64,000 nt of DNA from Sinorhizobium terangae (GTDB lineage: Bacteria > Pseudomonadota > Alphaproteobacteria > Rhizobiales > Rhizobiaceae): NCBI RefSeq assembly GCF_029714365.1, contig NZ_CP121659.1, forward strand, positions 3,632,501 through 3,696,500. The letters run 5' to 3'. Shown piece after piece: positions 16,903 through 36,146 of the stretch (positions are counted from its first letter, which is position 1; every line of letters starts with the position of its first letter). The translations under genes and the position numbers were made by a program. The notes below the pieces were generated by a model. It did no database searches and was not told the DNA's origin. It was given only the letters and a program-made list of their open reading frames with translations.

Positions 16903-17901
16903 CTAAATATAGCCCCTGATGGCTGCCAGGATTCTTGCATCCAAAGTGATGAAGCCACCGCCATTCTTCGCCGACAATGAGACCTTTTGACCCGGTATAT
17001 ACACGCCGAGCTGCTCGAGGCGCCTGACCTGTTCGGCGAGGCGAGCGCCGAAGTCTCCCCCGATCGCATTCGGCGATAGCGTGACAATGGTCAAGCCGGT
17101 GCCGGGGCATTCGGCTCCGGACCTGAAGTCTGGCGTGTCGAGGGACCAGGACGCGCCTGACAGGCCGGCCGCCAGGACCTCGACCATCAAGGCAATATTG
17201 GCTCCTCGCGGCCCGCCAAAAGCGAGCAGCACTCCTCGCAGCGCCTTGTGCGGGTCAAGGGTGACCTCGCCGTTTTCATCGGTGGCCCATCCCTCGGGAA
17301 TGGAGCGCCCCTCTGAAGCAGCCCGGACGATGTTGACGAACGCCGTTGCGCTCGACGACTGATCGATGACCAGCGGTCGCTCCGATCCCGACATCGGGGC
17401 ACCGAAGGCCAGCGGGTTGGTACCATAGACGGCCTTGGCGCCCGGTGTCGCGGCCACCATGGCAGGACTGTTGGCTACCGCAAGCGAGACCAGCCCATCG
17501 AGGGCCAGGCGTCTGACGTAGTATCCCAATTCGCCTGCCGTATAGCTGTTCCTCTGCGTGAAGATTGCCACACCGAAGGTCCGCGCCCGGTCGACGAGGT
17601 CCTCATAAACGAGGTCGAAGCCGAGCTGGGCGATTCCCCGATTGGCATCCGCGTGAATGAGGGCCGGAAGTCTATGTACGATGCGGGGGCTCGCACCCCC
17701 GTCGATGCGGCCCTCCCGCAGGCTCTGCAGGTAGTCGAGGAAATGTGGAAACCCCAGCTCGTCGCGGCCGACCTCGATGGCAGAGAGTGTCGCGTCGACG
17801 AGCGACTTCGCCGTCAAATGGCTGGCGCCTGCGGACAGGCAGGCCTCGGTCGCGAGCGACCGAGCCTCGGCAACGGGCAATGTGATCCTCTCGTCGAACA
17901 T
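16903..17901 (-). CDS. Ldh2/MDH2-family NAD(P)-dependent dehydrogenase
   Basis: The 332-residue protein belongs to the malate/L-lactate dehydrogenase (YlbC/YbiC-like) family. That family includes ureidoglycolate and lactate enzymes and also Delta1-pyrroline/piperideine-2-carboxylate reductases. Visible family blocks include GVAIFTQRNSYTAGELGYYV, the TPGAKAVYGTNPLAFGAP nucleotide-binding segment and FGGPRGANIALMVEVLA. Its ATG overlaps the stop of the upstream oxidoreductase (ATGA), indicating translational coupling. Beside ProC-like and demethylase genes, a cyclic-imine reductase role is plausible, but this is inference. Confidence 0.82.
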   Translation of the reverse strand: MFDERITLPVAEARSLATEACLSAGASHLTAKSLVDATLSAIEVGRDELGFPHFLDYLQSLREGRIDGGASPRIVHRLPALIHADANRGIAQLGFDLVYEDLVDRARTFGVAIFTQRNSYTAGELGYYVRRLALDGLVSLAVANSPAMVAATPGAKAVYGTNPLAFGAPMSGSERPLVIDQSSSATAFVNIVRAASEGRSIPEGWATDENGEVTLDPHKALRGVLLAFGGPRGANIALMVEVLAAGLSGASWSLDTPDFRSGAECPGTGLTIVTLSPNAIGGDFGARLAEQVRRLEQLGVYIPGQKVSLSAKNGGGFITLDARILAAIRGYI

Positions 17902-19886
17902 CAGAGCTCCAATGCAACCTTCCTGCCTTCATGGAAGGCATAGGGAGCCTGCCGCGAGGCGGCGCAATCGCCGATTAGATGGAAAGGCAGACCCTGACCC
18001 TCCAGATCTTGTGCCAACCAGTTGGCCGACATGTTTGTCGTGGCGAGGACGAGACAGTCTCCCTCGACGAAAGCTTGCCGTCCGGTGTTGTGGTCGACAA
18101 CCGTTGCGCCGTTCCCGTGCCATTCGACGACGCTGACTTCGACCAGCCAGTTGACGTCGAGCTTCCTCAGGATCCGCCGCAGCGGCACATCGGCCGTCGT
18201 TCGCTGGAGTTCCTTGCCGATGAAGGGGTCCGGGGAGAGGATGGTGACTGCATGGCCGTCCTCGGCAAGCTTCCAGGCCGTGCCGCAGCCCCGCCAGCCG
18301 CCACCTTCGTCGAGAAGCAGAACGCGGTTTCCGGGCCTCGCTTGACGCGCCACGACGGCCTCGACGGTGAACACGTTGCCGCGCTCGATCCCAGGCAGTG
18401 TCTCGACCGCGGGCAGGGCCTTCTGAAACCCTGTTTCCGGTGAATAGGAGCCGGTCGCAAGGATGATCGAATTGGCTCCGTAGGCCAAAATCTCCGATGC
18501 CTCCACGTAACAGTTGAGGCGCACGTCGACCTTCAGCTTGTCGAGCTGGCGTTCGTACCACTGGATGAGATCGAGAATCTGCCCGCGACGGGGCTGCATG
18601 CCGGCGAGCAGGAAGTTGCCGCCAAGCCGGCTGGAGGCTTCCATCAGGGCGACCTCGTGGCCTCTCTCTGCAGCGACCCGCGCCGCTTCCAATCCCGCCG
18701 GCCCGCCGCCCACGACAAGGACCTTCTTCGGTTCCGCGGTCCGAGTGAAACGGTCGCCGCCCCATTCAGATTCCCGTCCCGTGGACGGGTTGATGAGACA
18801 GCTTATCCAGTAGTCGCGCGAGCGCCGGCCCCAGCACATCTGATTGCAGGAAATGCATCCCCGGATGTCGTCGGGGCGATCGTCTTTTGCCTTTCGAGCG
18901 AGATGCGGATCGGCGATCTGGCCGCGGACGATGGACACCAGGTCCGCTGCACCTTCGCCAAGCACGATTTCGGCATTTTCCGGTGTCCTGATATGACTTT
19001 CGGCAATGACCAGCGCCTTCTTCACGGTCCGCTTGAGCGTCGCCCCGAGGTCGGCCCCGAGTTTCTCGGGGTAGAGGAAGGTGGGCATCAGCTTATGGAA
19101 GTCCAGATAGCCGCCGGACCCGCAAGTGACGTAGTCGATCAGCCCCAGTTCGTCATGCATGCCGACGATCTCGGCAAGCTCATCTCTGGAGAGCGCGACG
19201 CTGTAATCCGGCTCGTCGCTGACGGCGAGGCCGACGATGAAATCGGGTCCGCAGATCGCCCGGATGCGCGCGAGGATCTCGCGTGACATTCGCGTGCGGT
19301 TTTCCAGAGAGCCGCCCCAATCGTCGTCCCGGCGGTTCGACCACGGCGTCCAGAATTGATCGACCATACCGAGATAGGCGGCCCAGACTTCGACGCCGTC
19401 GAAACCCGCCTCCTGACACCGGCGTGCCGCCTGGACGAAGCCGTCGATGGTTTCCCAGATCTCCGCCTCGCTCATCGGATGCGAGCCATCGCTGTCATGA
19501 TAGCTGGGGAGACCCGACGGTGACCAATGCGGGTGAAAGGAATTGTCCGAATCGCCATGAGCGCCGACATGATAGAGCTGCTGGATGGCGACAGCGCCGT
19601 TGTCCTTGATGGCGGCGGCAACCTTTCTGAAGTGGGGGACCACACTGTCGTCCGAGGGGCGAAAGTTTCCCCGGGTAAGCACGGCTGCCGGATGGACCGG
19701 CATGGGTTCCACGACGATCATGGCTGCCCCGCCAATCGCCCGCTCGGCGTAATACGCCGCATGCCGCTCGGTCGGAAGCCCGCCTTCGGCCATGTTCGCC
19801 GTATGGGCCCCGAACACGATCCTGTTTCTTAGGGTGCACCCACGGAGCCTGATGGGTGAGAACAGGTGCGGGAACAGCTTAGACAT
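17901..19886 (-). CDS. OYE-type FMN/4Fe-4S/FAD oxidoreductase (dienoyl-CoA reductase/amine dehydrogenase family)
   Basis: The 661-residue protein has an N-terminal FMN TIM-barrel (about 1-350) of the old-yellow-enzyme/trimethylamine-dehydrogenase class. An iron-sulphur motif CISCNQMC with a fourth Cys 12 residues on lies at about 353-372. An FAD/NAD(P) domain starting VLVVGGGPAGLEAARVA (about 398) forms the C-terminal half. All four cluster cysteines are present. Such enzymes demethylate N-methyl amino acids (StcD, dimethylglycine-type) or reduce enoyl compounds. It is the penultimate gene of the minus-strand operon with ProC, a betaine-binding protein and TetR, so an N-methylated or betaine-derived substrate is likely. 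Confidence 0.88.
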   Translation of the reverse strand: MSKLFPHLFSPIRLRGCTLRNRIVFGAHTANMAEGGLPTERHAAYYAERAIGGAAMIVVEPMPVHPAAVLTRGNFRPSDDSVVPHFRKVAAAIKDNGAVAIQQLYHVGAHGDSDNSFHPHWSPSGLPSYHDSDGSHPMSEAEIWETIDGFVQAARRCQEAGFDGVEVWAAYLGMVDQFWTPWSNRRDDDWGGSLENRTRMSREILARIRAICGPDFIVGLAVSDEPDYSVALSRDELAEIVGMHDELGLIDYVTCGSGGYLDFHKLMPTFLYPEKLGADLGATLKRTVKKALVIAESHIRTPENAEIVLGEGAADLVSIVRGQIADPHLARKAKDDRPDDIRGCISCNQMCWGRRSRDYWISCLINPSTGRESEWGGDRFTRTAEPKKVLVVGGGPAGLEAARVAAERGHEVALMEASSRLGGNFLLAGMQPRRGQILDLIQWYERQLDKLKVDVRLNCYVEASEILAYGANSIILATGSYSPETGFQKALPAVETLPGIERGNVFTVEAVVARQARPGNRVLLLDEGGGWRGCGTAWKLAEDGHAVTILSPDPFIGKELQRTTADVPLRRILRKLDVNWLVEVSVVEWHGNGATVVDHNTGRQAFVEGDCLVLATTNMSANWLAQDLEGQGLPFHLIGDCAASRQAPYAFHEGRKVALEL

Positions 19887-20038: not shown

Positions 20039-21040
20039 TCAGAGCGCCGCCTTGATCTTCTCGGCCGCTTCCGGCGAGACCCACTTGGACCAGACATCCT
20101 CGTTCTCCTCGAGGAAGTGCTTGGCGCCTTCTTCGCCGCTCGCCTGGTTATCCGTCATCCAGGCCATCAGCTTGCTGACTGTGTCGTTGCTCCAGGACCG
20201 CTTGTTCAGGTAGTCCATGACCTCGGGACCGGCCTTCTCCGAGAACGGCTTGGCGACCAGCGTCACGATGGTATCGACCGGCCACGCGCTTGGTTTCGGG
20301 TCAGGGCAATCGGCCACGGTAACGCAGCGCTTCCACTCCGCCGCATCTTCCGGAACGCCTGGTTCCAGCTTGACCATCTGGTATTTGCCGAGGAGCGCTG
20401 TTGGCGCCCAATAGTAGCCGACCCAGGCTTCCTTGGACTCATATGCTTTGGCGATAGAGCCATCCAAGCCGGCGGCTGAACCGGTGTCGACGAGTTTGAA
20501 GCCGGCTTTCTCGGCGTCGAACGCCTTAAACAGCTGAGACGTGACGACGGTGCCGCCCCATCCCTGAGGGCCATTGAAGATCGCCCCCTTCTTGGGGTCT
20601 TCCGGATCGGGAAACAGGTCCGGGTGTTTCAACATGTCGGGAATCGTTTTGATGTCTGGGTGGGCATCCGCGAAATATTTTGGGATCCACCAGCCTTGCA
20701 CGCCGCCATCAGGCAGCGGAGAACCGACCTTGACGATACGGCCTTCTTCCGTTCCCTTCTTGACGACATCGGGCAGCAGATCGATCCACGCCTCCGGCGC
20801 GATATCGGGCTCACCCTTTTCCGCCATCGAGGTGATCGTCGGGACGGTGTCGCCGATGGTGATTTCGGCGTCGCAGCCATAACCCTCATTCAGGATGATC
20901 TTGTCGAGGTTGGAAAGCACTTCCGCGCTCTGCCAGTTCATGCTCGCGATGGTCAGCGATCCGCATTCCGCAGCGTTGGTGACGGACGCGCCTCCCAGTA
21001 CACCAAGCATGAGGCAAGTCGATGCAAGTAGATACTTCAT
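20039..21040 (-). CDS. Glycine betaine/proline betaine-type ABC substrate-binding protein (orphan)
   Basis: The 333-residue protein starts behind AAGGGAACGGCA with a Sec signal peptide (MKYLLASTCLMLGVLGGASV, cleavage near TNAA). It belongs to the OpuAC/ProX binding-protein family. Candidate aromatic-box residues are the tryptophans in SMNWQSAE, PEAWIDL, GWWIPKYF and WVGYYWAP. In the family these cradle quaternary ammonium or sulphonium groups. No permease or ATPase gene accompanies it, so it must dock on a transporter encoded elsewhere or act as a sensor. A frame extension upstream to 21106 lacks a signal-peptide-compatible start. Confidence 0.9.
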   Translation of the reverse strand: MKYLLASTCLMLGVLGGASVTNAAECGSLTIASMNWQSAEVLSNLDKIILNEGYGCDAEITIGDTVPTITSMAEKGEPDIAPEAWIDLLPDVVKKGTEEGRIVKVGSPLPDGGVQGWWIPKYFADAHPDIKTIPDMLKHPDLFPDPEDPKKGAIFNGPQGWGGTVVTSQLFKAFDAEKAGFKLVDTGSAAGLDGSIAKAYESKEAWVGYYWAPTALLGKYQMVKLEPGVPEDAAEWKRCVTVADCPDPKPSAWPVDTIVTLVAKPFSEKAGPEVMDYLNKRSWSNDTVSKLMAWMTDNQASGEEGAKHFLEENEDVWSKWVSPEAAEKIKAAL

Positions 21041-21112
21041 TGCCGTTCCCTTTTCTTGTTGCGGCGTATTGTTGAAGAGCAGGATGCCGCGTTTTCCCTG
21101 CTCCAACGGCAG

Positions 21113-21907
21113 CTAGGAGCGTTCTCCCATACTCACCGATTTTCTCTGAGCGGCCGCAAGGCCGTCGGCGACAGCGGCCTCAAAGCCAGCAGCGCGCATT
21201 GCTTCGATCGCGGCGGCGGTCGTGCCGCGATAGCCAACAAACGCTTCAACCGTGTCGGCAGGATGTTCGTCGCGACGTTCAAGCAGGCGGCCCGCGCCGA
21301 TGAGCACCGTGGTCACCGCGCGCCGAGCGATCTCCGGACCAAGTCCGCGCGCTACGGCATCGTTCATCATCGCGGTCGCCAACAATGCGGGAAATGCCGG
21401 ACCCGATCCGGAAAGGCCCGTCAGGTAATCGATGTCGCTTTCGCTTGCGACCTCGTCCTCAGTTCCGCAGGCATCGAAGATCGCGCGGACGACGGCGCGG
21501 TCCTGATCGGTTACGTCCACCGAGCCGATCCAGGGCGTGTAGGACTTGCCTACCTCCGCCGCCGCGTTCGGCAAGCTGCGCACAACTCTCTTCGTATTGT
21601 GGTGTTCGGCCAATTGGCTCAAACGAACGCCGGCCATGACGGAAATCACGAGCTTACCATCGGCGTCGATCAGAAGCGGCGGCCAATCTGCGGGCCGGAC
21701 CGAGACAATGATTACGTCCGAACGGTCGGCGAGCTGTCGGTTGTCGGCGGTCCAGAAGGAGCCGGCAAAGCGGTTCGGCTGCTCTGTACGATAAGAGAGG
21801 GAAAGATCATGCGGCTGCACCAAACCGGCATCGAGCAGTGAGGCGGCAATTGCTCCACCGAGCCAGCCGGCTCCACCAACGATGCCAATCCTTAGTGAGC
21901 CGCTCAT
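21113..21907 (-). CDS. Pyrroline-5-carboxylate reductase family protein (ProC-like)
   Basis: The 264-residue protein has an N-terminal Rossmann motif GIVGGAGWLGGAIA (8-21). The family signature region is LSGSGPAFPALLATAMMNDA (about 165-184), followed by GTTAAAIEAM (about 228-237). ProC reduces Delta1-pyrroline-5-carboxylate to proline with NADPH. The sequence is more divergent than housekeeping ProC, and its place in a betaine locus argues for a specialised paralogue acting on an imine intermediate. It lies 6 bp after the TetR gene and 72 bp before the binding protein, within one operon. Confidence 0.85.
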   Translation of the reverse strand: MSGSLRIGIVGGAGWLGGAIAASLLDAGLVQPHDLSLSYRTEQPNRFAGSFWTADNRQLADRSDVIIVSVRPADWPPLLIDADGKLVISVMAGVRLSQLAEHHNTKRVVRSLPNAAAEVGKSYTPWIGSVDVTDQDRAVVRAIFDACGTEDEVASESDIDYLTGLSGSGPAFPALLATAMMNDAVARGLGPEIARRAVTTVLIGAGRLLERRDEHPADTVEAFVGYRGTTAAAIEAMRAAGFEAAVADGLAAAQRKSVSMGERS

Positions 21908-21913
21908 CGTTGT

Positions 21914-22552
21914 TTATCCTCCGGCCTCTGGTTTGTAGCCGTGCCGCGCGAAGAAGCGATCCAGCTCCCTTCGCTCCGGTACCTGGCCCGTGTAGATGGC
22001 AATGTACTCGGGAATCCGCCTCATACGGGTGGCGATATCCTCGCGAGTCTGCATCGAGATGTAGCCGATCTGAACCAGGTAGGTCGTACGCGCGCGGACA
22101 TCGGCGGTGATCTCTGAATGGCCGAAACGGATAAACATGCGCTTGAGGGCTTCCAACCGCACGTGGTCGGCTTGCTGAACCTCGTTCAGGATGTCTTCGG
22201 ACTGGAGTGCCCAGCTGCGCACGGCAAACTCGAACTTCGAGTCGAACAGGTCCTTGTTCAGCCAGCAATCGAATACGTTGAGCATCGCCTCGGCCAGCGA
22301 TTCCGCGTATGCCTCCGATTGCTTCACGATGTTGCCGGTATTCTTGTCCCGCCACCGGCCGATGAGCGCAGCCAGCAGCTCTTCCCGGTCCTTGAAGAAC
22401 CAGTAGAAGCTCGTTCGCGACAGGTTGAGCCTCTTTGCCAGCGGCAGGATCTTTACGGAGTCCACTCCGCCTTCGAGCAGTGACTCGTAGGCCGCCTCCA
22501 GCCACCCCTCCTGCGATCCGCGCCAGCCGCTGTCGTTTGAAACGTGCTCCAT
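21914..22552 (-). CDS. TetR/AcrR family regulator of the betaine-type locus
   Basis: The 212-residue protein has helix-turn-helix LPLAKRLNLSRTSFYWFFKD at about residues 37-56, then REELLAAL. The remaining C-terminal domain (FEFAVRSWALQSEDI, GYISMQTREDI) is typical of a TetR subgroup that ends in a conserved Arg/Pro-rich segment. It is the first gene of the minus-strand operon and divergent from the StcD-like gene. The 146-bp gap holds two ATGTACA sites that are candidate operators. It probably controls both transcripts in response to the betaine or an intermediate. Confidence 0.9.
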   Translation of the reverse strand: MEHVSNDSGWRGSQEGWLEAAYESLLEGGVDSVKILPLAKRLNLSRTSFYWFFKDREELLAALIGRWRDKNTGNIVKQSEAYAESLAEAMLNVFDCWLNKDLFDSKFEFAVRSWALQSEDILNEVQQADHVRLEALKRMFIRFGHSEITADVRARTTYLVQIGYISMQTREDIATRMRRIPEYIAIYTGQVPERRELDRFFARHGYKPEAGG

Positions 22553-22592
22553 AACGATTTCCTAACAAATTGTGAAAGGGCACACAAGAAAA

Positions 22593-22652
22593 ATGTACAC
22601 TGATGTCGATATCGCAGACCTATATGTTTCTTGACTTGACACTTATGTACAT
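22593..22652. promoter_or_regulatory. Divergent promoter with paired ATGTACA sites
   Basis: ATGTACAC at 22593-22600 and the perfect palindrome ATGTACAT at 22645-22652 lie 52 bp apart between the TetR gene and the StcD-like gene. A candidate -35 TTGACT (22632-22637) lies between them. They are likely operator half-sites for the adjacent TetR protein. Confidence 0.55.
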
Positions 22653-22698
22653 TTCTGCGTAGCGTTTGAGCCGACGTTTCTAGACCGGAGCCCGGCAC

Positions 22699-24735
22699 AT
22701 GTCGAACGACCCCCTCCTTCAGCCCTATCAGCTCAAGCACTTGACGCTGCGCAACCGCATCATCGTGACGTCGCACGAGCCGGCCTATCCGGAGGATGGC
22801 ATGCCGAAGGAGCGGTATCGCGCCTATACGGTCGAGAGAGCAAAAGGCGGGGTGGCGCTGACGATGACCGCGGGCTCTGCCGCGGTTTCGAAGGACAGTC
22901 CGCCGGTGTTCAACAACCTGCTCGCCTACAAAGACGAGATCGTGCCGTGGATCAGAGAGATGACCGACGCCGTGCACGACGAGGGTGCGGCGATCATGAT
23001 CCAGCTTACCCATCTCGGCCGGCGCACGCGGTGGGACAAGGGTGACTGGCTGCCGGTTGTCGCCCCCTCCCATCAGCGCGAAGCATCGCACCGCGCCTTC
23101 CCCAAGAAGCTCGAAGACTGGGACATCGAGCGCATCATCAAGGATTTCGCCGATGCGGCCGAGCGCATGAAGGCGGGCGGCATGGATGGCGTTGAACTGG
23201 AAGCCTACGGTCACCTGCTTGACCAGTTCACGTCGCCGCTAACGAACGAGCTTGACGGTCCTTACGGCGGTTCTCTCGACAACCGCATGCGCTTCTGTTT
23301 CGACGTCCTGAAGGCGATCCGCGCACGCGTCGGAGACGATTTCATCCTGGGCGTGCGATACACGGCCGACGAGTGTCTTCCCGGCGGCACGGGCAAGGAG
23401 GAAGGCGTTGAAATCTCGAAGCGCCTCAAGGAAAGCGGTCTTATCGATTACCTGAACGTTATCCGCGGGCATATCGATACCGACGCCGGCCTCACCGATG
23501 TCATCCCGATCCAGGGCATGGCCAATTCGCCGCATCTCGATTTCGCCGGCGAAATTCGCGCGGCCACGAACTTCCCGACCTTCCACGCAGCGAAGATTCC
23601 CGACGTCGCCACCGCGCGCCACGCGATTGCGTCCGGCAAGGTCGACATGGTCGGAATGACCCGCGCCCATATGACGGACCCGCATATCGTCCGAAAGATG
23701 ATGGAGAAGCGTGAGGACGACATTCGGCCCTGCGTTGGGGCGAACTACTGTCTCGACCGCATCTACCAGGGTGGTGCCGCCTATTGCATCCACAATGCCG
23801 CGACCGGTCGTGAACTCACCATGCCGCACACGATCGCGAAAGCGGAGCGCCGCAAGAAGGTCGTGATCGTCGGCGCCGGGCCTGCCGGCCTTGAGGCGGC
23901 CCGTGTGGCGGGCGAGCGCGGCCATGAGGTCGTCGTCTTTGAGGCGGCTAACGATCCGGGAGGCCAGATCAGGCTCACGGCTCAAAGCGAACGACGCAGG
24001 GAAATGATCAGCATCATCGACTGGCGGATGAGCCAGTGCGAGAAGCTGGGCGTCACCTTCCATTTCAACACCTGGGCGGAGGCTGAGACCGTAGGGGCCG
24101 AAAATCCGGACGTCGTCGTCATCGCGACAGGCGGACTTCCGCACACGGACGTCCTCTCCAAGGGCAACGAGCTCGTCGTCTCCGCCTGGGACATCATCTC
24201 GGGCGACGTCAAGCCGGGCACCAACGTCCTTATCTTCGACGACGCCGGCGACCATGCCGGCCTGCAGGCCGCCGAATTCCTCGCCAACGCCGGCGCCAAG
24301 GTCGAGATCATGACCCCAGACCGCTCCTTCGCGCCGGAAGTCATGGCGATGAACCTCGTCCCCTACATGCGGTCCTTGCAGAAACTGGACGTGACCTTCA
24401 CCGTCACCTACCGGCTCGATGCGGTTGAACGCGAAGGCAACCAGCTCATCGCCCATGTCGGCAGTGACTATGGCGGCGTTGCGAAGCAGCGTACGGTGGA
24501 TCAGGTGGTGATCAACCACGGCACCATTCCGCTCGACGAACTGTACTTCGAGCTGAAACCCGTCTCGAGCAATCTCGGGGAGATGTCGCACGATCAGCTG
24601 ATCGCCGGGGAGCAGCAGTCCGTCCTGCGCAACCCACAGGGCAAATTCCAGCTCTTCCGCATCGGCGACGCAGTCGCGGCGCGCAACACGCACGCCGCAA
24701 TCTACGACGCGCTTCGGCTTCTCAAGGACGTCTGA
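22699..24735 (+). CDS. stcD: N-methylproline demethylase-type oxidoreductase (StcD-like)
   Basis: The 678-residue protein has an FMN barrel (about 1-345) and a C-terminal FAD/NAD(P) module starting VVIVGAGPAGLEAARVAGER (about 391). Length and sequence fit StcD of proline-betaine (stachydrine) catabolism, which removes the N-methyl group from N-methylproline. The cluster-binding segment reads CVGANYC and a later Cys, so the second cysteine of the usual C-X2-C-X3-C is Ala. This seems to be a subfamily trait, but it makes cluster occupancy uncertain. It is divergent from TetR and 55 bp upstream of the DddQ-like cupin, likely one transcript. A paralogue at 17901 lies in the opposing operon. Confidence 0.85.
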   Translation: MSNDPLLQPYQLKHLTLRNRIIVTSHEPAYPEDGMPKERYRAYTVERAKGGVALTMTAGSAAVSKDSPPVFNNLLAYKDEIVPWIREMTDAVHDEGAAIMIQLTHLGRRTRWDKGDWLPVVAPSHQREASHRAFPKKLEDWDIERIIKDFADAAERMKAGGMDGVELEAYGHLLDQFTSPLTNELDGPYGGSLDNRMRFCFDVLKAIRARVGDDFILGVRYTADECLPGGTGKEEGVEISKRLKESGLIDYLNVIRGHIDTDAGLTDVIPIQGMANSPHLDFAGEIRAATNFPTFHAAKIPDVATARHAIASGKVDMVGMTRAHMTDPHIVRKMMEKREDDIRPCVGANYCLDRIYQGGAAYCIHNAATGRELTMPHTIAKAERRKKVVIVGAGPAGLEAARVAGERGHEVVVFEAANDPGGQIRLTAQSERRREMISIIDWRMSQCEKLGVTFHFNTWAEAETVGAENPDVVVIATGGLPHTDVLSKGNELVVSAWDIISGDVKPGTNVLIFDDAGDHAGLQAAEFLANAGAKVEIMTPDRSFAPEVMAMNLVPYMRSLQKLDVTFTVTYRLDAVEREGNQLIAHVGSDYGGVAKQRTVDQVVINHGTIPLDELYFELKPVSSNLGEMSHDQLIAGEQQSVLRNPQGKFQLFRIGDAVAARNTHAAIYDALRLLKDV

Positions 24736-24790: not shown

Positions 24791-25396
24791 ATGGCAGGTC
24801 GAAGCGAGGCTCTTCAGTCATTCGTCGATGCAGCCCTTACGGCATTCGACCAATTCGCCCGAGCTCCGGAATCGCGCCGCTCGATCCGGCGGATTTTTTC
24901 TGCGCTTGAGGTTCCGGGCCCGCAAAGGTCTGGTCCGGGGAGCCGGCTGCCGGTGTGTGCCCAACTCGACGCGGCGCTCGCCGTCGAGACCGAATACGGT
25001 TCGCTTCGCCGCTTGATCGACCGCTTCAAGGCGATCGAACCGTTGCTCGAATGGCGCCGGCGGTCGAACAATGACGGTTCCGAAAGCGTGAATTTCTTCG
25101 AAGGCCACGCCAATGCGATGATCATTGGGCCCGGCGGCCTCGAAGATCGGCGGGACCTGTGGATCGGCGTCACCCTCATGGCGCCAAATGTTCGCTATCC
25201 GGACCATGATCATGCACCCGACGAGGTCTATCTCGTTCTTTCGGAGGGGGAATTCCGGCAGGGACAAGGAGCCTGGTTCTCGCCGGGCGTCGGCGGTTCC
25301 TTCTACAATGAGCCCGGAATCAGACACGCCATGCGATCGGTCGACGCCCCGCTCTTTGCCTTCTGGGCGTTGCTCGTAGCGTATCCGGCCCAGTAA
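24791..25396 (+). CDS. DMSP lyase-like cupin (DddQ family)
   Basis: The 201-residue protein starts behind AGGGGAATTCA. A helical N-terminal half is followed by a cupin. The motif YPDHDHAPDEVY gives Tyr136, His139, His141, Glu145 and Tyr147, and GIRHA gives His179. The spacing His141-Glu145-Tyr147-His179 with Tyr136 equals that of the metal ligands (His125, Glu129, Tyr131, His163) and catalytic Tyr120 reported for marine DddQ. The length also matches. DddQ splits dimethylsulfoniopropionate into dimethyl sulphide and acrylate. Here the gene sits behind a StcD-like demethylase, so the true substrate could be another betaine or a sulphonium compound. Family is confident; substrate is not. Confidence 0.8.
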   Translation: MAGRSEALQSFVDAALTAFDQFARAPESRRSIRRIFSALEVPGPQRSGPGSRLPVCAQLDAALAVETEYGSLRRLIDRFKAIEPLLEWRRRSNNDGSESVNFFEGHANAMIIGPGGLEDRRDLWIGVTLMAPNVRYPDHDHAPDEVYLVLSEGEFRQGQGAWFSPGVGGSFYNEPGIRHAMRSVDAPLFAFWALLVAYPAQ

Positions 25397-25606: not shown

Positions 25607-25702
25607 ACTACTGCATGTTTCCTTAAATCATATCCGACTTAGGGATCAAAACGTGCAGCAAGTGCTACAGCGTCCGCGTCTGACAAGACGCGCGGCGCTG
25701 TG
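25607..25702 (-). repeat. RIME-like intergenic mosaic element (reverse orientation)
   Basis: The segment begins ctactgcatg, contains a degenerate ccttaaatcatatccgactt block and ends with tctgacaagacgcgcggcgctgtgg. This is the reverse of the element at 11475-11580. The rest of the gap 25397-25606 shows no gene. The element runs up to the start region of the next gene. Confidence 0.78.
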
Positions 25703-25714
25703 GCGTCGAAGATG

Positions 25715-26980
25715 ATGTGTTCTTGCGACCAAGTGGGATGTGCGGTGCCGCGTTTCCTCGTAGCGTTTATCTCTGTTCTTCTTGCGGTTCCGAGCCTCTC
25801 CGGTACCTACGCGCAGGAGTCTTCGCCCGCACCGGCCGGCAAGACGGCTCCAGCCAAACAGGTCTCGGAGATCAAGCTCGGCTACCTTCGTGCCTATGCG
25901 CCGCAACTTGCCCTTTCTGTGCTGGACGTGCCGCCGCGCGACGAAGGTGTCGCGGGGGCGGAGGTCGCGATCGGCGACAACAACACGACCGGCAGGTTCC
26001 TCGGACAGAAGTTTACGCTCGATGTGTCCGAGGTGAAGCCGGATGCCGACGTCGTACCTGCCTTCAATGACATGGTCTCGAAGGGCGTTCTCTACATTCT
26101 CGCCGATCTCTCCGCCGCGCAGCTTCTGTCGATTGCCGATCTCGCCCGTGACAAGGGCATTTTGATCTTCAACGTTGGTGCCCCGGACGACCGTCTGCGC
26201 GAGGAGGACTGCCGGGCGAACGTCTTCCACACGGCGCCGACGCGAACCATGCTCGCCGATGGGCTGGCGCAATATCTGATATGGAAACAGTGGCGCCGAT
26301 GGGTGCTGGTCTACGGCTCTCATGAGCCGGACAAGCTGTTCGCCGATGCGCTCCGCCGCGCCGCGACCCGCTTCGGCGGCGAGATCGTGGCGGAAAAGGA
26401 ATTCACCGATACCGGCACGGCGCGGCGGACGGATACCGGCGTGGTCCAGATCCAACGGCAGATGCCGGTTTTCACTCAAGGCTTCCCCGATCACGATGTG
26501 CTGCTCGTGGCCGACGAGAGCGAGGTTTTCGGAACCTATGTGCCGTTCCGGACCTGGATTCCGCGTCCGGTCGCCGGGACCGCCGGCCTGATCCCTTCTG
26601 CCTGGCATCCGGCCAGCGAGCAATGGGGCGGCACGCAGATACAGAACCGCTTCGCCAAGGCCAACGGCAGACGGATGTTGTCCAAGGACATGGCCGCGTG
26701 GACCGCTGCGAGGATTATCGGCGATGCTGCCACGCGCACGCAAAGTGCCGACCCCGAAAAGCTTGCGGCCTTCATTCGCGCCGATGACTTTTCGATCGCC
26801 GCGTTCAAGGGGCAGCGGCTGACCTTCCGCAAATGGAACTGGCAGTTGCGCCAGCCGATCTTCCTCGGAGACGGCCGTTCCGTCGTATCGACGTCGCCGC
26901 AGGAAGGATTCCTGCATCAGGTTTCCGAGCTCGACACGCTCGGGATCGATCAGCCGGAGACCCAATGCAAGCTGAAATAG
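25715..26980 (+). CDS. PQQ-alcohol-dehydrogenase-associated ABC substrate-binding protein
   Basis: The protein of about 420 residues has a Sec signal (PRFLVAFISVLLAVPSLSG, cleavage near YAQ). It is a periplasmic-binding-protein-fold member (type I-like) of the subfamily found with PQQ-dependent alcohol dehydrogenases. Segments such as IKLGYLRAYAPQLALSVLD, AIGDNNTTGRFLGQKF and IFNVGAPDDRLREEDCRANV are characteristic. The start is uncertain: two adjacent ATGs at 25712/25715 or a GTG at 25745 are possible. It is the first gene of a set with a beta-propeller, an ATPase and a permease that leads to xoxF. Related sets in methylotrophs and pseudomonads are linked to lanthanide-dependent alcohol oxidation. 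Confidence 0.85.
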   Translation: MCSCDQVGCAVPRFLVAFISVLLAVPSLSGTYAQESSPAPAGKTAPAKQVSEIKLGYLRAYAPQLALSVLDVPPRDEGVAGAEVAIGDNNTTGRFLGQKFTLDVSEVKPDADVVPAFNDMVSKGVLYILADLSAAQLLSIADLARDKGILIFNVGAPDDRLREEDCRANVFHTAPTRTMLADGLAQYLIWKQWRRWVLVYGSHEPDKLFADALRRAATRFGGEIVAEKEFTDTGTARRTDTGVVQIQRQMPVFTQGFPDHDVLLVADESEVFGTYVPFRTWIPRPVAGTAGLIPSAWHPASEQWGGTQIQNRFAKANGRRMLSKDMAAWTAARIIGDAATRTQSADPEKLAAFIRADDFSIAAFKGQRLTFRKWNWQLRQPIFLGDGRSVVSTSPQEGFLHQVSELDTLGIDQPETQCKLK

Positions 26981-26981
26981 G

Positions 26982-27038
26982 CTACAGCGCCGCGCGTCCA
27001 ATCGGACGCGCAAGGTCGATTTAAGGAATCATGCAGTA
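26982..27038 (+). repeat. RIME-like element with internal deletion
   Basis: The left arm (ctacagcgccgcgcgtccaa and its complement) is joined directly to the right end (gatttaaggaatcatgcagt). About 50 bp of the middle, present in the copy at 11475-11580, is missing. It sits inside the operon, between the binding-protein and beta-propeller genes. Confidence 0.75.
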
Positions 27039-27055
27039 CACAGGGAGAGAGCCAG

Positions 27056-28033
27056 ATGCTGCGAAGACTGACCTTTCTGTCGGCCGGGTTTGCCTTGGCA
27101 GCAAGCGCGGCGTCGCCGGCGTCCGCCTACATGGTCTACGTCTCCAACGAGAAGGACAACACGGTGACCGTCGTCGACTCGACCACGATGGAGGTGGTAC
27201 GCACCGTCGATGTCGGCCAGCGGCCGCGCGGCATCACGATTTCGCACGACGGCAAGTTCATCTATCTCTGCGCAAGCGACGACGACACGATCGAGATCAT
27301 CGACACGGCCACCTACGAGATCGTCGGGACGCTGCCCTCCGGTCCTGACCCCGAGCTCTTCGTGCTTTCTCCCGACGGCAAAACGCTCTACGTCGCCAAT
27401 GAGGACGACAATCTGGTCACGGTCATCGACCTGGAGAGCAGGAGCGTGGCGATGGAGGTGCCCGTTGGCGTCGAACCCGAGGGAATGGGCATCAGCCCGG
27501 ACGGGAAGTCGTTGGTCAACACCTCGGAAACGACCAACATGGCGCACTTCATCGACACCGAGACCCACGAGATCACCGACAATGTCCTCGTCGATGCCAG
27601 GCCGCGCTTTGCCGAGTTCAAACCCGACAATTCGGAGGTCTGGGTCAGCGCCGAAATCGGCGGCACGGTCTCGGTCATCGACAATGCGAGCCGTGAGGTG
27701 AAGCACAAGATCACCTTCGAGATTCCCGGCTTGCGCGCGGAAGCGATCCAGCCGGTCGGCGTGCGGATCACTGCCGATGGCAAGAAAGCCTATGTGGCGC
27801 TCGGCCCCGCCAATCGCGTCGCCGTGGTCAATGCGCAGACCTACGAGGTCGAAAAATATGTGCTCGTCGGGCAGCGGGTCTGGCAGCTCGCCTTCACGCC
27901 CGACCAGAAGACGATCATCAGCACCAACGGCGTTTCGAACGACATCACCTTCATCGACGTTGCCACCGATGAAGCGGTTCAGTCGGTGACCGTCGGGGCG
28001 CTGCCCTGGGGGGTGGTCGTCAGCCCGGACTGA
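27056..28033 (+). CDS. Secreted YVTN beta-propeller protein, PQQ-catabolism associated
   Basis: The 325-residue protein starts behind GGGAGAGAGCC with a Sec signal (cleaved after SPASA near residue 24). The mature protein consists of about seven YVTN-type blades of about 40 residues, for example MVYVSNEKDNTVTVVDS, FIYLCASDDDTIEIID and TLYVANEDDNLVTVID. Such propellers accompany the ABC system next to PQQ-dependent alcohol dehydrogenases, and a role in periplasmic metal or substrate handling has been proposed for related loci. Many acidic loop residues (Asp/Glu pairs) would suit cation binding, which is inference. Confidence 0.88.
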   Translation: MLRRLTFLSAGFALAASAASPASAYMVYVSNEKDNTVTVVDSTTMEVVRTVDVGQRPRGITISHDGKFIYLCASDDDTIEIIDTATYEIVGTLPSGPDPELFVLSPDGKTLYVANEDDNLVTVIDLESRSVAMEVPVGVEPEGMGISPDGKSLVNTSETTNMAHFIDTETHEITDNVLVDARPRFAEFKPDNSEVWVSAEIGGTVSVIDNASREVKHKITFEIPGLRAEAIQPVGVRITADGKKAYVALGPANRVAVVNAQTYEVEKYVLVGQRVWQLAFTPDQKTIISTNGVSNDITFIDVATDEAVQSVTVGALPWGVVVSPD

Positions 28034-33980: not shown

Positions 33981-34244
33981 TCTATTTAATCTTGCCTAAG
34001 ACCGTCTAATCGCCTATTCTACCTGACGTTTCCGGCTTCAAGCCTTGTCTCTTGGGAGCGTAAATGTCGCGTCGGTCAAGAGGACGGGCAACAACGGTGC
34101 CCTCTGCCCATCCAACTGAACCGTGAAACTTTGAAGTAAGCAGATATCCCACGACAAGCACGACAGAGCTTGGGCTGGCCTTGTGGTCGCCCGAGGATTG
34201 TGATGACGCGCCTCGGGTCCACACTGACACCGGGAGGAATCCGC

Positions 34245-36146
34245 ATGCGCATACTCGGAAAACTAAGTCTGCCGATGACCGCCGTTGGAGTTCTGATGGC
34301 GGCCCTTGCCGGAAATGCGTTCGCCAATGATGAACTGATGAAACTGTCGAGCGACGCGAAGAACTGGGCGATGCCGACCGGCGACTATGCAAACACCCGC
34401 TATTCGAAACTTAACCAGATCAACAAGGACAACGTCAAAAACCTGCAAGTCAAATGGACGTTCTCCACTGGCGTGTTGCGCGGCCATGAAGGCGGCCCGC
34501 TGGTGATCGGCGATGTGATGTACGTCCATACGCCGTTCCCGAATACCGTCTATGCCCTTGATCTCAAGAACGACGGGAAGATCCTCTGGAAATACGAGCC
34601 AAAGCAGGATGCGAACGTTATTCCGATCATGTGCTGCGACACGGTCAACCGGGGTCCGGCCTATGGTGACGGCAAGATCATCCTGTACCAGGCTGATACG
34701 ATGGTCACGGCGCTCGATGCCAAGACCGGCAAGGTCGCTTGGCAAGCTCAAAATGGCGAAAAAATCGACGGGAGCCTGTCCGAGTCCGGCACATCCGCTC
34801 CTATGATAGTAAAGGACAAAGTAATCGTTGGCATATCGGGTGCCGAATTTGGCGTCCGCGGCCATGTCACCGCTTACAATCTGAGTGACGGCAAGCGTGT
34901 GTGGCGGGCATATTCCACGGGTCCCGACTCCGAAACGCTGATTGATCCCGAGAAGACCACGCATCTCGGTAAGCCTGTCGGCAAGGACTCCGGGATGAAC
35001 ACATGGGAAGGCGAGCAGTGGAAGACCGGCGGCGGTACGACATGGGGATGGTACTCCTATGATCCAAAGCTCAACCTGATCTACTACGGGACGGGCAACC
35101 CTTCGACCTGGAACCCCAACCAGAGACCCGGCGACAACCGCTGGTCGATGACGCTCATGGCGCGTGACGTCGATACCGGTCAGGCCAAGTGGCTTTACCA
35201 GATGACGCCGCACGACGAATGGGACTTTGACGGCGTCAACGAGAACATTCTCGTCGACGGCATGGAAATCAACGGTCAGCCGCGCGACGTGGTCGTGCAC
35301 TTTGACCGCAACGGCTTCGGCTACACCCTTGACCGTGCAACGGGTGAGCTTCTGGTTGCCAAGAAATACGATCCGACGGTGAACTGGGCGACCGAGGTCG
35401 TGATGGATCCCAAGAGCGAACAGTATGGGCGTCCGCAAGTCGTAAACGAGTACTCCACCGAGTATAACGGCGAGGACGTCAACACCAAGGGTGTCTGCCC
35501 GGCAGCACTGGGAACGAAAGACCAGCAACCGGCAGCCTATTCGCCAAAGACCAAACTGTTCTACGTGCCAACCAACCATGTCTGCATGGACTACGAGCCG
35601 TACAAGGTGAGCTACACGGCCGGTCAGCCCTATGTGGGCGCGACCGTGAACATGTATCCCACACCCAAGAGCCACGGCGGCATGGGTAATTTCATTGCCT
35701 GGGACGCGGCCAAGGGTGAGATCGTCTGGTCGAAGCCGGAGCAGTTCTCAGTGTGGTCAGGTGCGCTCGCAACCGAAGGCGACGTCATCTTCTATGGCAC
35801 GCTCGAAGGCTACATCAAGGCCGTGGATACGGCGGGAAATGAACTCTACAAGTTCAAGACACCCTCCGGCATCATCGGCAACATCAACACCTTCGAACAC
35901 GACGGCAAGCAGTACATAGCAGTCCTGTCGGGTGTTGGCGGCTGGGCCGGCATCGGACTCGCCGGCGGCCTACTGGGAGCTGAGGGTGCAGCAGCGTGGC
36001 AGCAGGCGGTTGCCGGTGAAAAAGCTCCGACCGAGGAAAGTCAGAGCATCGCCACAGCAGGGCTGGGTGCAGTCGGCGGTTATGCTGCCCTGGCGAACTA
36101 CACAACGCTCGGCGGTCAGCTGACCGTCTTCGGTCTTCCGGATTGA
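34245..36146 (+). CDS. xoxF: Lanthanide-dependent PQQ methanol dehydrogenase XoxF
   Basis: The 633-residue periplasmic quinoprotein starts at ATG behind GGGAGGAAT. The signal peptide is cleaved near GNAFAN (residue 27). It is an eight-bladed propeller of the PQQ alcohol dehydrogenase family. The vicinal disulphide Cys130-Cys131 (IMCCDTV) stacks on PQQ in this family. Catalytic Asp327 is followed by Asp329 in DEWDFDG; the Asp at +2 is the accepted mark of lanthanide-binding XoxF, where calcium MxaF has Ala. Tryptophan docking motifs (e.g. GNLIYYG-type and [19 protein letters not shown]) are present. It oxidises methanol to formaldehyde or formate and passes electrons to the cytochrome encoded next. 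The first 25 residues of the longer frame lack a ribosome-binding site. Confidence 0.96.

Follow-up and report, generated by a model that had tools for sequence, protein, structure and literature searches.

A cupin gene of Sinorhizobium terangae carries the complete active site of the marine dimethylsulfoniopropionate (DMSP) lyase DddQ and lies directly behind the demethylase gene of a plant betaine operon. We give about an even chance to its product, hereafter DLL (from the DMSP-lyase-like cupin superfamily, PF16867), being a metal-dependent accessory enzyme in proline-betaine-type (stachydrine-type) catabolism. Because the gene sits inside an operon that strips methyl groups from stachydrine, its substrate is most likely a breakdown product of a nitrogen betaine rather than DMSP. 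The evidence in hand consists of the predicted fold, the site residues, the operon linkage and a shared conserved promoter. What most calls for an explanation is that a lyase site kept perfectly should go with N-methylproline demethylation and yet be dispensable there.

The cupin and its active site

The gene was found in a window of 64,000 nucleotides (contig NZ_CP121659.1, positions 3,632,501 to 3,696,500), a block of which is 96.5-100% identical to S. terangae USDA4894.

24791..25396, forward strand: DLL, a DMSP_lyase-family cupin with the DddQ fold, 201 residues; site Tyr136/His139/His141/Glu145/Tyr147/His179

DLL scores 201.7 bits against the Pfam DMSP_lyase model (gathering cut-off 27) and matches no NCBIfam model at E <= 0.001. 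A genome search found no second gene of the PF16867 type. Its predicted structure is of the DddQ type, with N-terminal helices and a cupin barrel. The residues given as essential in DddQ (PMC4437653), Tyr120, His123, His125, Glu129, Tyr131 and His163, are all present at the spacing of Ruegeria lacuscaerulensis DddQ. The first-pass annotation had claimed metal ligands and a catalytic tyrosine at identical spacing in this protein, and both the fold and an alignment matching every DddQ site residue bear it out; its list of Tyr136, His141, Glu145, Tyr147 and His179 stands, with His139, which it left out, also present. All six residues are invariant in the 39 aligned DLL1 sequences (the query and 38 relatives at 29-84% identity), as are Trp162 and Trp192. 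The observation of a DddQ-type site is real and confirmed.

A close relationship to characterised DddQ was not found. Identity to the solved enzymes (R. lacuscaerulensis 4la2/5jsp, R. pomeroyi 5cu1 and R. nubinhibens 4b29) is 17-24%, and the best phmmer match among them reaches 34 bits (E 2.1e-7). Residues 105-108 are GHAN in DLL and RYGY, RFAC or RFGW in three solved DddQs. Unlike DddQ, DLL stands behind stcD in rhizobia, with no DMSP or acrylate genes seen alongside.

The stcD operon and its regulator

The genes upstream of DLL are these:

22699..24735, forward strand: stcD orthologue (678 residues; Oxidored_FMN and FAD/NAD domain), by homology an N-methylproline demethylase; 55 bases separate it from DLL downstream
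21914..22552, reverse strand: TetR-family regulator, divergent from stcD, present in 40/41 stcD loci
21113..21907, reverse strand: ProC-like (pyrroline-5-carboxylate reductase family) protein
20039..21106, reverse strand: OpuAC/DmpX-like betaine-binding protein, pocket W-T-W-Q-W-G-Y-W against W-T-W-E-W-A-Y-W in RnDmpX
17901..19886, reverse strand: OYE1, a second FadH/TMADH-type flavoenzyme
16903..17901, reverse strand: Ldh_2-family reductase (DpkA type)

The window flavoenzyme has a single match (E <= 1e-10) on S. meliloti 1021 pSymB, at 91% identity over its full length (1108030-1110063). Since stcD, the N-methylproline demethylase gene of stachydrine catabolism, is placed on pSymB (PMC12239276), the flavoenzyme upstream of DLL is almost certainly its orthologue. 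What had been annotated as a StcD-like N-demethylase is thus probably StcD's own counterpart, and the betaine locus described with it, having a TetR promoter and a betaine-type binding protein on the opposite side, is recovered in the stcD, TetR and OpuAC/DmpX-like genes. No permease or ATPase gene lies beside the binding protein of the window. The nearest solved structure to the Ldh_2 protein is a delta1-piperideine-2-carboxylate reductase (148 bits; next 101.5), which suggests cyclic-imine chemistry.

In S. meliloti the DMSP_lyase gene likewise lies directly behind stcD, and the pSymB locus has the same TetR/stcD-DLL arrangement with a binding protein (SBP). The S. meliloti 1021 counterpart of DLL occupies pSymB 1107396-1107980. 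The Paracoccus hpb (proline-betaine) pathway is also similar: the P. aminophilus protein annotated HpbA, N-methyl-L-proline N-demethylase, is 76% identical to the window StcD and is encoded beside TetR and ProC-like genes. Unlike the window, P. aminophilus has no DLL in the 26 kb around hpbA; its DLL (49%) is carried by a different plasmid, with sarcosine oxidase and carnitine genes close by. In the literature found, no account describes a cupin behind stcD as part of stachydrine use, or links a DMSP lyase with stachydrine, proline betaine or N-demethylation, which is not a claim of absence from print.

The gap between tetR and stcD contains a pair of candidate regulatory sites:

22592..22609, reverse strand: putative TetR operator copy 1 (TGTACA core), facing the tetR gene
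22636..22653, forward strand: putative TetR operator copy 2, overlapping the TTGACA -35-like box of the stcD-DLL promoter

These are inverted copies of an 18-bp site, TTGACAC-N-T-N-TGTACATT. With at most one mismatch it has two matches in the whole 6.63-Mb genome, both in this gap, and none for the reversed control; the pair is a putative TetR operator of a single-target regulon. The right-hand copy recurs in 37/41 stcD upstream regions whether DLL is present or absent (a set that differs from the 41 loci compared for gene content below, as it includes the window and L004 and omits L002 and L037). In the loci with tetR separated from stcD (L036, L104), a weaker second site pair precedes tetR and stcD keeps its own site, which supports TetR as the binder. 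The gap between stcD and DLL contains no sigma-70-like promoter and no terminator-like site, the promoter scan having been blank across the whole stretch and the four terminator-like sites found elsewhere being near chance. DLL is therefore most simply read as co-transcribed with stcD.

Downstream, a PQQ-dependent alcohol-oxidation set abuts DLL (window 25700-28033 and 34170-36146; TIGR03863 binding protein, TIGR03866 propeller), followed by ABC and quinoprotein-like frames, the latter recognised by eye. The PQQ genes at 25700-28033 were considered as part of the locus and provisionally set aside: apart from the window's own loci, S. terangae L002 alone showed them, though several other loci end just past DLL. 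Elsewhere in the genome a 62% stcD paralogue (G000:C1:450.8-454.5 kb; L067:10849-14473) lies directly behind an MttB-like methyltransferase frame, also recognised by eye.

How closely DLL follows stcD

Among 120 related genomes, 32 belong to the genus of the window, its own included. DLL is present at 57% identity or more in 18 of these 32, and each of the 18 has stcD as the immediate upstream neighbour in the same orientation, the two alignments being 41-161 nt apart. A nineteenth (G305) has a 45% match without an adjoining stcD. The demethylase gene itself (at least 89%) occurs in 29 of the 32, and DLL is not required wherever it occurs, 11 of the 29 having no DLL match at E <= 1e-40. This marks DLL as accessory and not as the core demethylation step. 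Two of these 11 (L108, L110) have the S. meliloti stcD arrangement minus DLL; demethylation therefore does not need the cupin. The L108 and L110 neighbourhood of ArsK, LD-transpeptidase, SBP, TetR, stcD, usg and GroESL genes offers natural knock-outs for comparison.

Across the order, DLL was detected at E <= 1e-20 in 20 of 297 genomes, at 22 places. Seven of these lie behind stcD (own genome, G023, G281, G121, G198, G150 and G187) and 15 lie elsewhere, one of them (G036) with a 45% stcD relative 1.9 kb off on the opposite strand. The stcD-linked clade thus corresponds roughly to members at 57% identity or more, the more distant ones being mostly in other contexts. Exceptions exist: in Phyllobacterium T1018 DLL (69%) comes after the genes for a Rieske oxygenase and its reductase, stcD being two kilobases off, and in L007 a 66% DLL lies behind a ProC-like gene, with a hydroxyproline-type set and genes for serine hydroxymethyltransferase and sarcosine oxidase close by. 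The L007 record is titled Mycobacterium sp. KBS0706 yet carries a rhizobial-type ProC-DLL locus, so its label or the origin of the gene looks odd. Two distant DLLs without stcD, one in Burkholderia L057 (42.5%) and one in L042 (43%), also adjoin betaine ABC and hydroxyproline-type genes. In Roseovarius (L011, ~8.2-12.7 kb) Pfam places DLL within the ribosomal-protein/secY operon, between S5 and L15-SecY, and L009 has frames of similar sizes.

Extended loci and a second cupin

Gene content was compared in 41 stcD loci, 23 with DLL and 18 without, whose flanks are unequal (10-28.6 kb), which were chosen for holding DLL (21) or stcD (20), which include some close relatives (L059, L079), and which leave out loci without stcD (e.g., L007, L009-L011, L038-L051) and the short locus L004. 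Significance values for such a set are no more than indicative. Several genes occur only beside DLL in this set: the betaine ABC ATPase and permease (16/23 vs 0/18), OYE1 (10/23 vs 0/18), Rieske (8/23 vs 0/18), EtfB (8/23 vs 0/18) and Ldh (4/23 vs 0/18). ProC (16/23 vs 4/18) and SBP (19/23 vs 7/18) are found in both groups, as is TetR (23/23 vs 17/18). Since the extra enzymes tend to go with DLL, the DLL-containing locus appears to be an extended version of the stcD locus. Across species, the genes linked to DLL serve N-demethylation and formaldehyde oxidation.

Fuller arrangements are found outside Sinorhizobium. In Rhizobium leguminosarum GLR17 and 3841 the order is ABC transporter-ProC-TetR/stcD-DLL-EtfB-EtfA-DLL2, followed by three glutathione formaldehyde genes and then a set that we take to be of the hydroxyproline type, a PF05544 gene being found there. 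The Shinella locus adds Ldh, an OYE1-kind FAD oxidoreductase and a Rieske pair.

DLL2 is a second DMSP_lyase-family cupin, placed in Rhizobium behind EtfA in the same operon as DLL. Six sequences were checked:

L059:14495-15037, DLL2
L078:1432-1974, DLL2
L032:1486-2025, DLL2
L033:1489-2025, DLL2
L073:8887-9420, DLL2
L064:8740-9297, DLL2

In all six the metal site is lost: His141 is replaced by Gln or Leu, Glu145 by Arg and Tyr147 by Phe or Met, and His179 is lost. DLL2 has the look of a partner without catalysis of its own, associated with genes for Etf or amine oxidation.

A possible role in betaine breakdown

If demethylation proceeds without DLL, what could a lyase-type cupin contribute? 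In the proposed route a DmpX/ProX-like transporter would import the betaine, the Rieske oxygenase of fuller loci would take off one N-methyl group and StcD the second, passing electrons to EtfAB, while the formaldehyde would leave through the glutathione pathway. In DddK the substrate carboxylate is held by the metal, and the proposed acceptor of the alpha-proton is a tyrosinate (PMC12582016); in DddQ, Tyr131 is proposed to start catalysis (PMC4437653). Because the site is intact in DLL, the same alpha-proton half-reaction on a carboxylate is the best inference: an intermediate derived from the betaine would be held on the DLL metal through its carboxylate and would lose its alpha-proton to Tyr147, together with Tyr136. 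DddK also adds amines to acrylate by aza-Michael addition (PMC12582016), so a DddQ-type site tolerates C-N chemistry.

The nitrogen of stachydrine is on the alpha-carbon, so a DMSP-type elimination is impossible on stachydrine itself. A beta-substituted derivative could undergo elimination, or the reaction could stop at proton exchange (epimerisation). As a first guess, DLL might catalyse beta-elimination on an N-methylproline or betaine with a beta substituent (e.g., a 3-hydroxyl); the resulting cyclic imine or iminium could conceivably be returned to the proline pool by DpkA-like Ldh_2 and ProC-like reductases. A 3-hydroxylated substrate may be present in the rhizosphere. The DpkA-like and ProC-like reductases weakly favour such an elimination over epimerisation. 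The second alternative of the first-pass annotation, a lyase fold used on a nitrogen betaine, fits best. A broader version is possible and is put forward tentatively: that the whole rhizobial DLL branch deposited as 'dimethylsulfoniopropionate lyase' turns the metal/tyrosine alpha-proton chemistry of DddQ on proline-betaine intermediates in the rhizosphere, in some species with a metal-less DLL2 in the operon.

Several observations stand against a nitrogen-betaine role. Demethylation by stcD runs without DLL, as the DLL-less genomes above show, and since two demethylations already yield proline or hydroxyproline, no enzyme is obviously missing. Most order-wide places are not behind stcD, and most of these more distant DLLs are in other contexts. 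The hydroxyproline-type cluster beside DLL in Rhizobium has a PF05544 epimerase of its own, and Ldh is present in only four of the 23 DLL-containing stcD loci.

Epimerisation itself is unlikely to be the function of DLL, though it asks little of the site. A 2-epimerase or racemase of betaines or N-methylprolines would remove and return the alpha-proton with no leaving group, needing just that half of DddQ chemistry, and would make both stereoisomers usable; an accessory relation to stcD is what a stereoisomer-widening enzyme would show. C2 epimerisation is a known step of some betaine pathways (HpbD), and L042 and L057 carry their hydroxyproline-type genes with no PF05544 gene on the same contig or plasmid. 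Such epimerases are already at hand elsewhere, however. Two PF05544 genes are present in the window's own genome, and one follows the hydroxyproline-type cluster directly in 3841 and closely in GLR17. The candidate role of DLL as the missing 2-epimerase of the 4-hydroxyproline-like set in Rhizobium was rejected on this ground (PF05544 at 580469 in 3841, where the last annotated gene ends at 580434, and at 423250 in GLR17). The PF05544 search matched in seven of eight genomes or records, the Burkholderia plasmid being the one that did not.

The case for DMSP

A functional DMSP lyase, with DmpX-like uptake, cleavage to DMS and acrylate, and a place near stcD owed to a shared module of zwitterionic-osmolyte uptake and regulation, seems quite improbable. 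The complete DddQ site and fold are what such an enzyme would have, and the best solved relative of the window binding protein is RnDmpX, a DMSP-binding protein (255 bits). Six of the eight DmpX pocket residues (PMC10030565) are shared, among them Tyr200 and the four Trp of the cage; relative to DmpX (7YLE), Glu113 is replaced by Gln and Ala153 by Gly. The analogues which that account names as tested do not include proline betaine. The pocket, with both replacements, is nonetheless kept in 7/7 DLL-lacking loci that have the binding protein, so it tracks stcD and not DLL, and the binding protein no longer counts as support for DMSP. Divergent pockets occur in two copies, the second copy of L003 (first Trp replaced by Val) and that of L042 (W-T-T-S-W-G-Q-W).

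The surrounding genes offer DMSP breakdown little. No DMSP or acrylate genes (acuI and others) were found among the ten window proteins scanned, DLL and the nine around it, and no protein of the genome scores over the AcuI cut-off (TIGR02823; best 100.6 bits vs 297.25), in agreement with what PMC3338564 reports of Sinorhizobium. R. leguminosarum 3841, which has the same operon, is described as without known DMSP links (PMC3338564), and a Rhizobium served as a host unable to catabolise DMSOP (PMC10686828). These host observations are weak evidence against DMSP, since TetR may repress the operon without its inducer. The GHAN stretch at residues 105-108 also sets DLL apart from the solved enzymes. 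The context of DLL points away from DMSP, and the first-pass suggestion that the locus may break it down is not supported.

Remaining alternatives

There is a slim chance that DLL is not an enzyme of the pathway and serves the demethylase complex as a helper or sensor that binds metal. The metal-less DLL2 paralogue in the Rhizobium operon is in line with this, since it implies that part of the DLL family may be non-catalytic; the invariance of the six site residues in every aligned DLL1 sequence stands against it. Least probable of all is a strict nitrogen-betaine lyase, releasing an amine by retro-aza-Michael reaction from a beta-amino carboxylate betaine (e.g., beta-alanine betaine) for OYE-type dehydrogenases: DddK performs the addition and the solved relatives of both locus flavoenzymes include TMADH, but solved amine dehydrogenases are not the closest solved relatives of StcD, and its 76% match is to the annotated N-methylproline demethylase.

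Implications

The DLL family is real and well conserved, and is probably mislabelled. Database entries label many such rhizobial genes 'dimethylsulfoniopropionate lyase', and homology-based surveys of DMSP lyases could score them as soil producers of DMS. The locus provides a concrete test of other uses of the DddQ site, and as the operon is present in S. meliloti and R. leguminosarum, both amenable to genetics, the question can be tested directly. Stachydrine is exuded by Medicago seeds, and its catabolism is said to enhance competitiveness in root colonisation (PMC12239276); this tie means that the answer bears on plant-microbe ecology. The function of DLL also bears on how DMSP lyases arose. 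If the nitrogen-betaine reading is true, marine DMSP lyases and rhizosphere plant-betaine enzymes would be two uses of one site.
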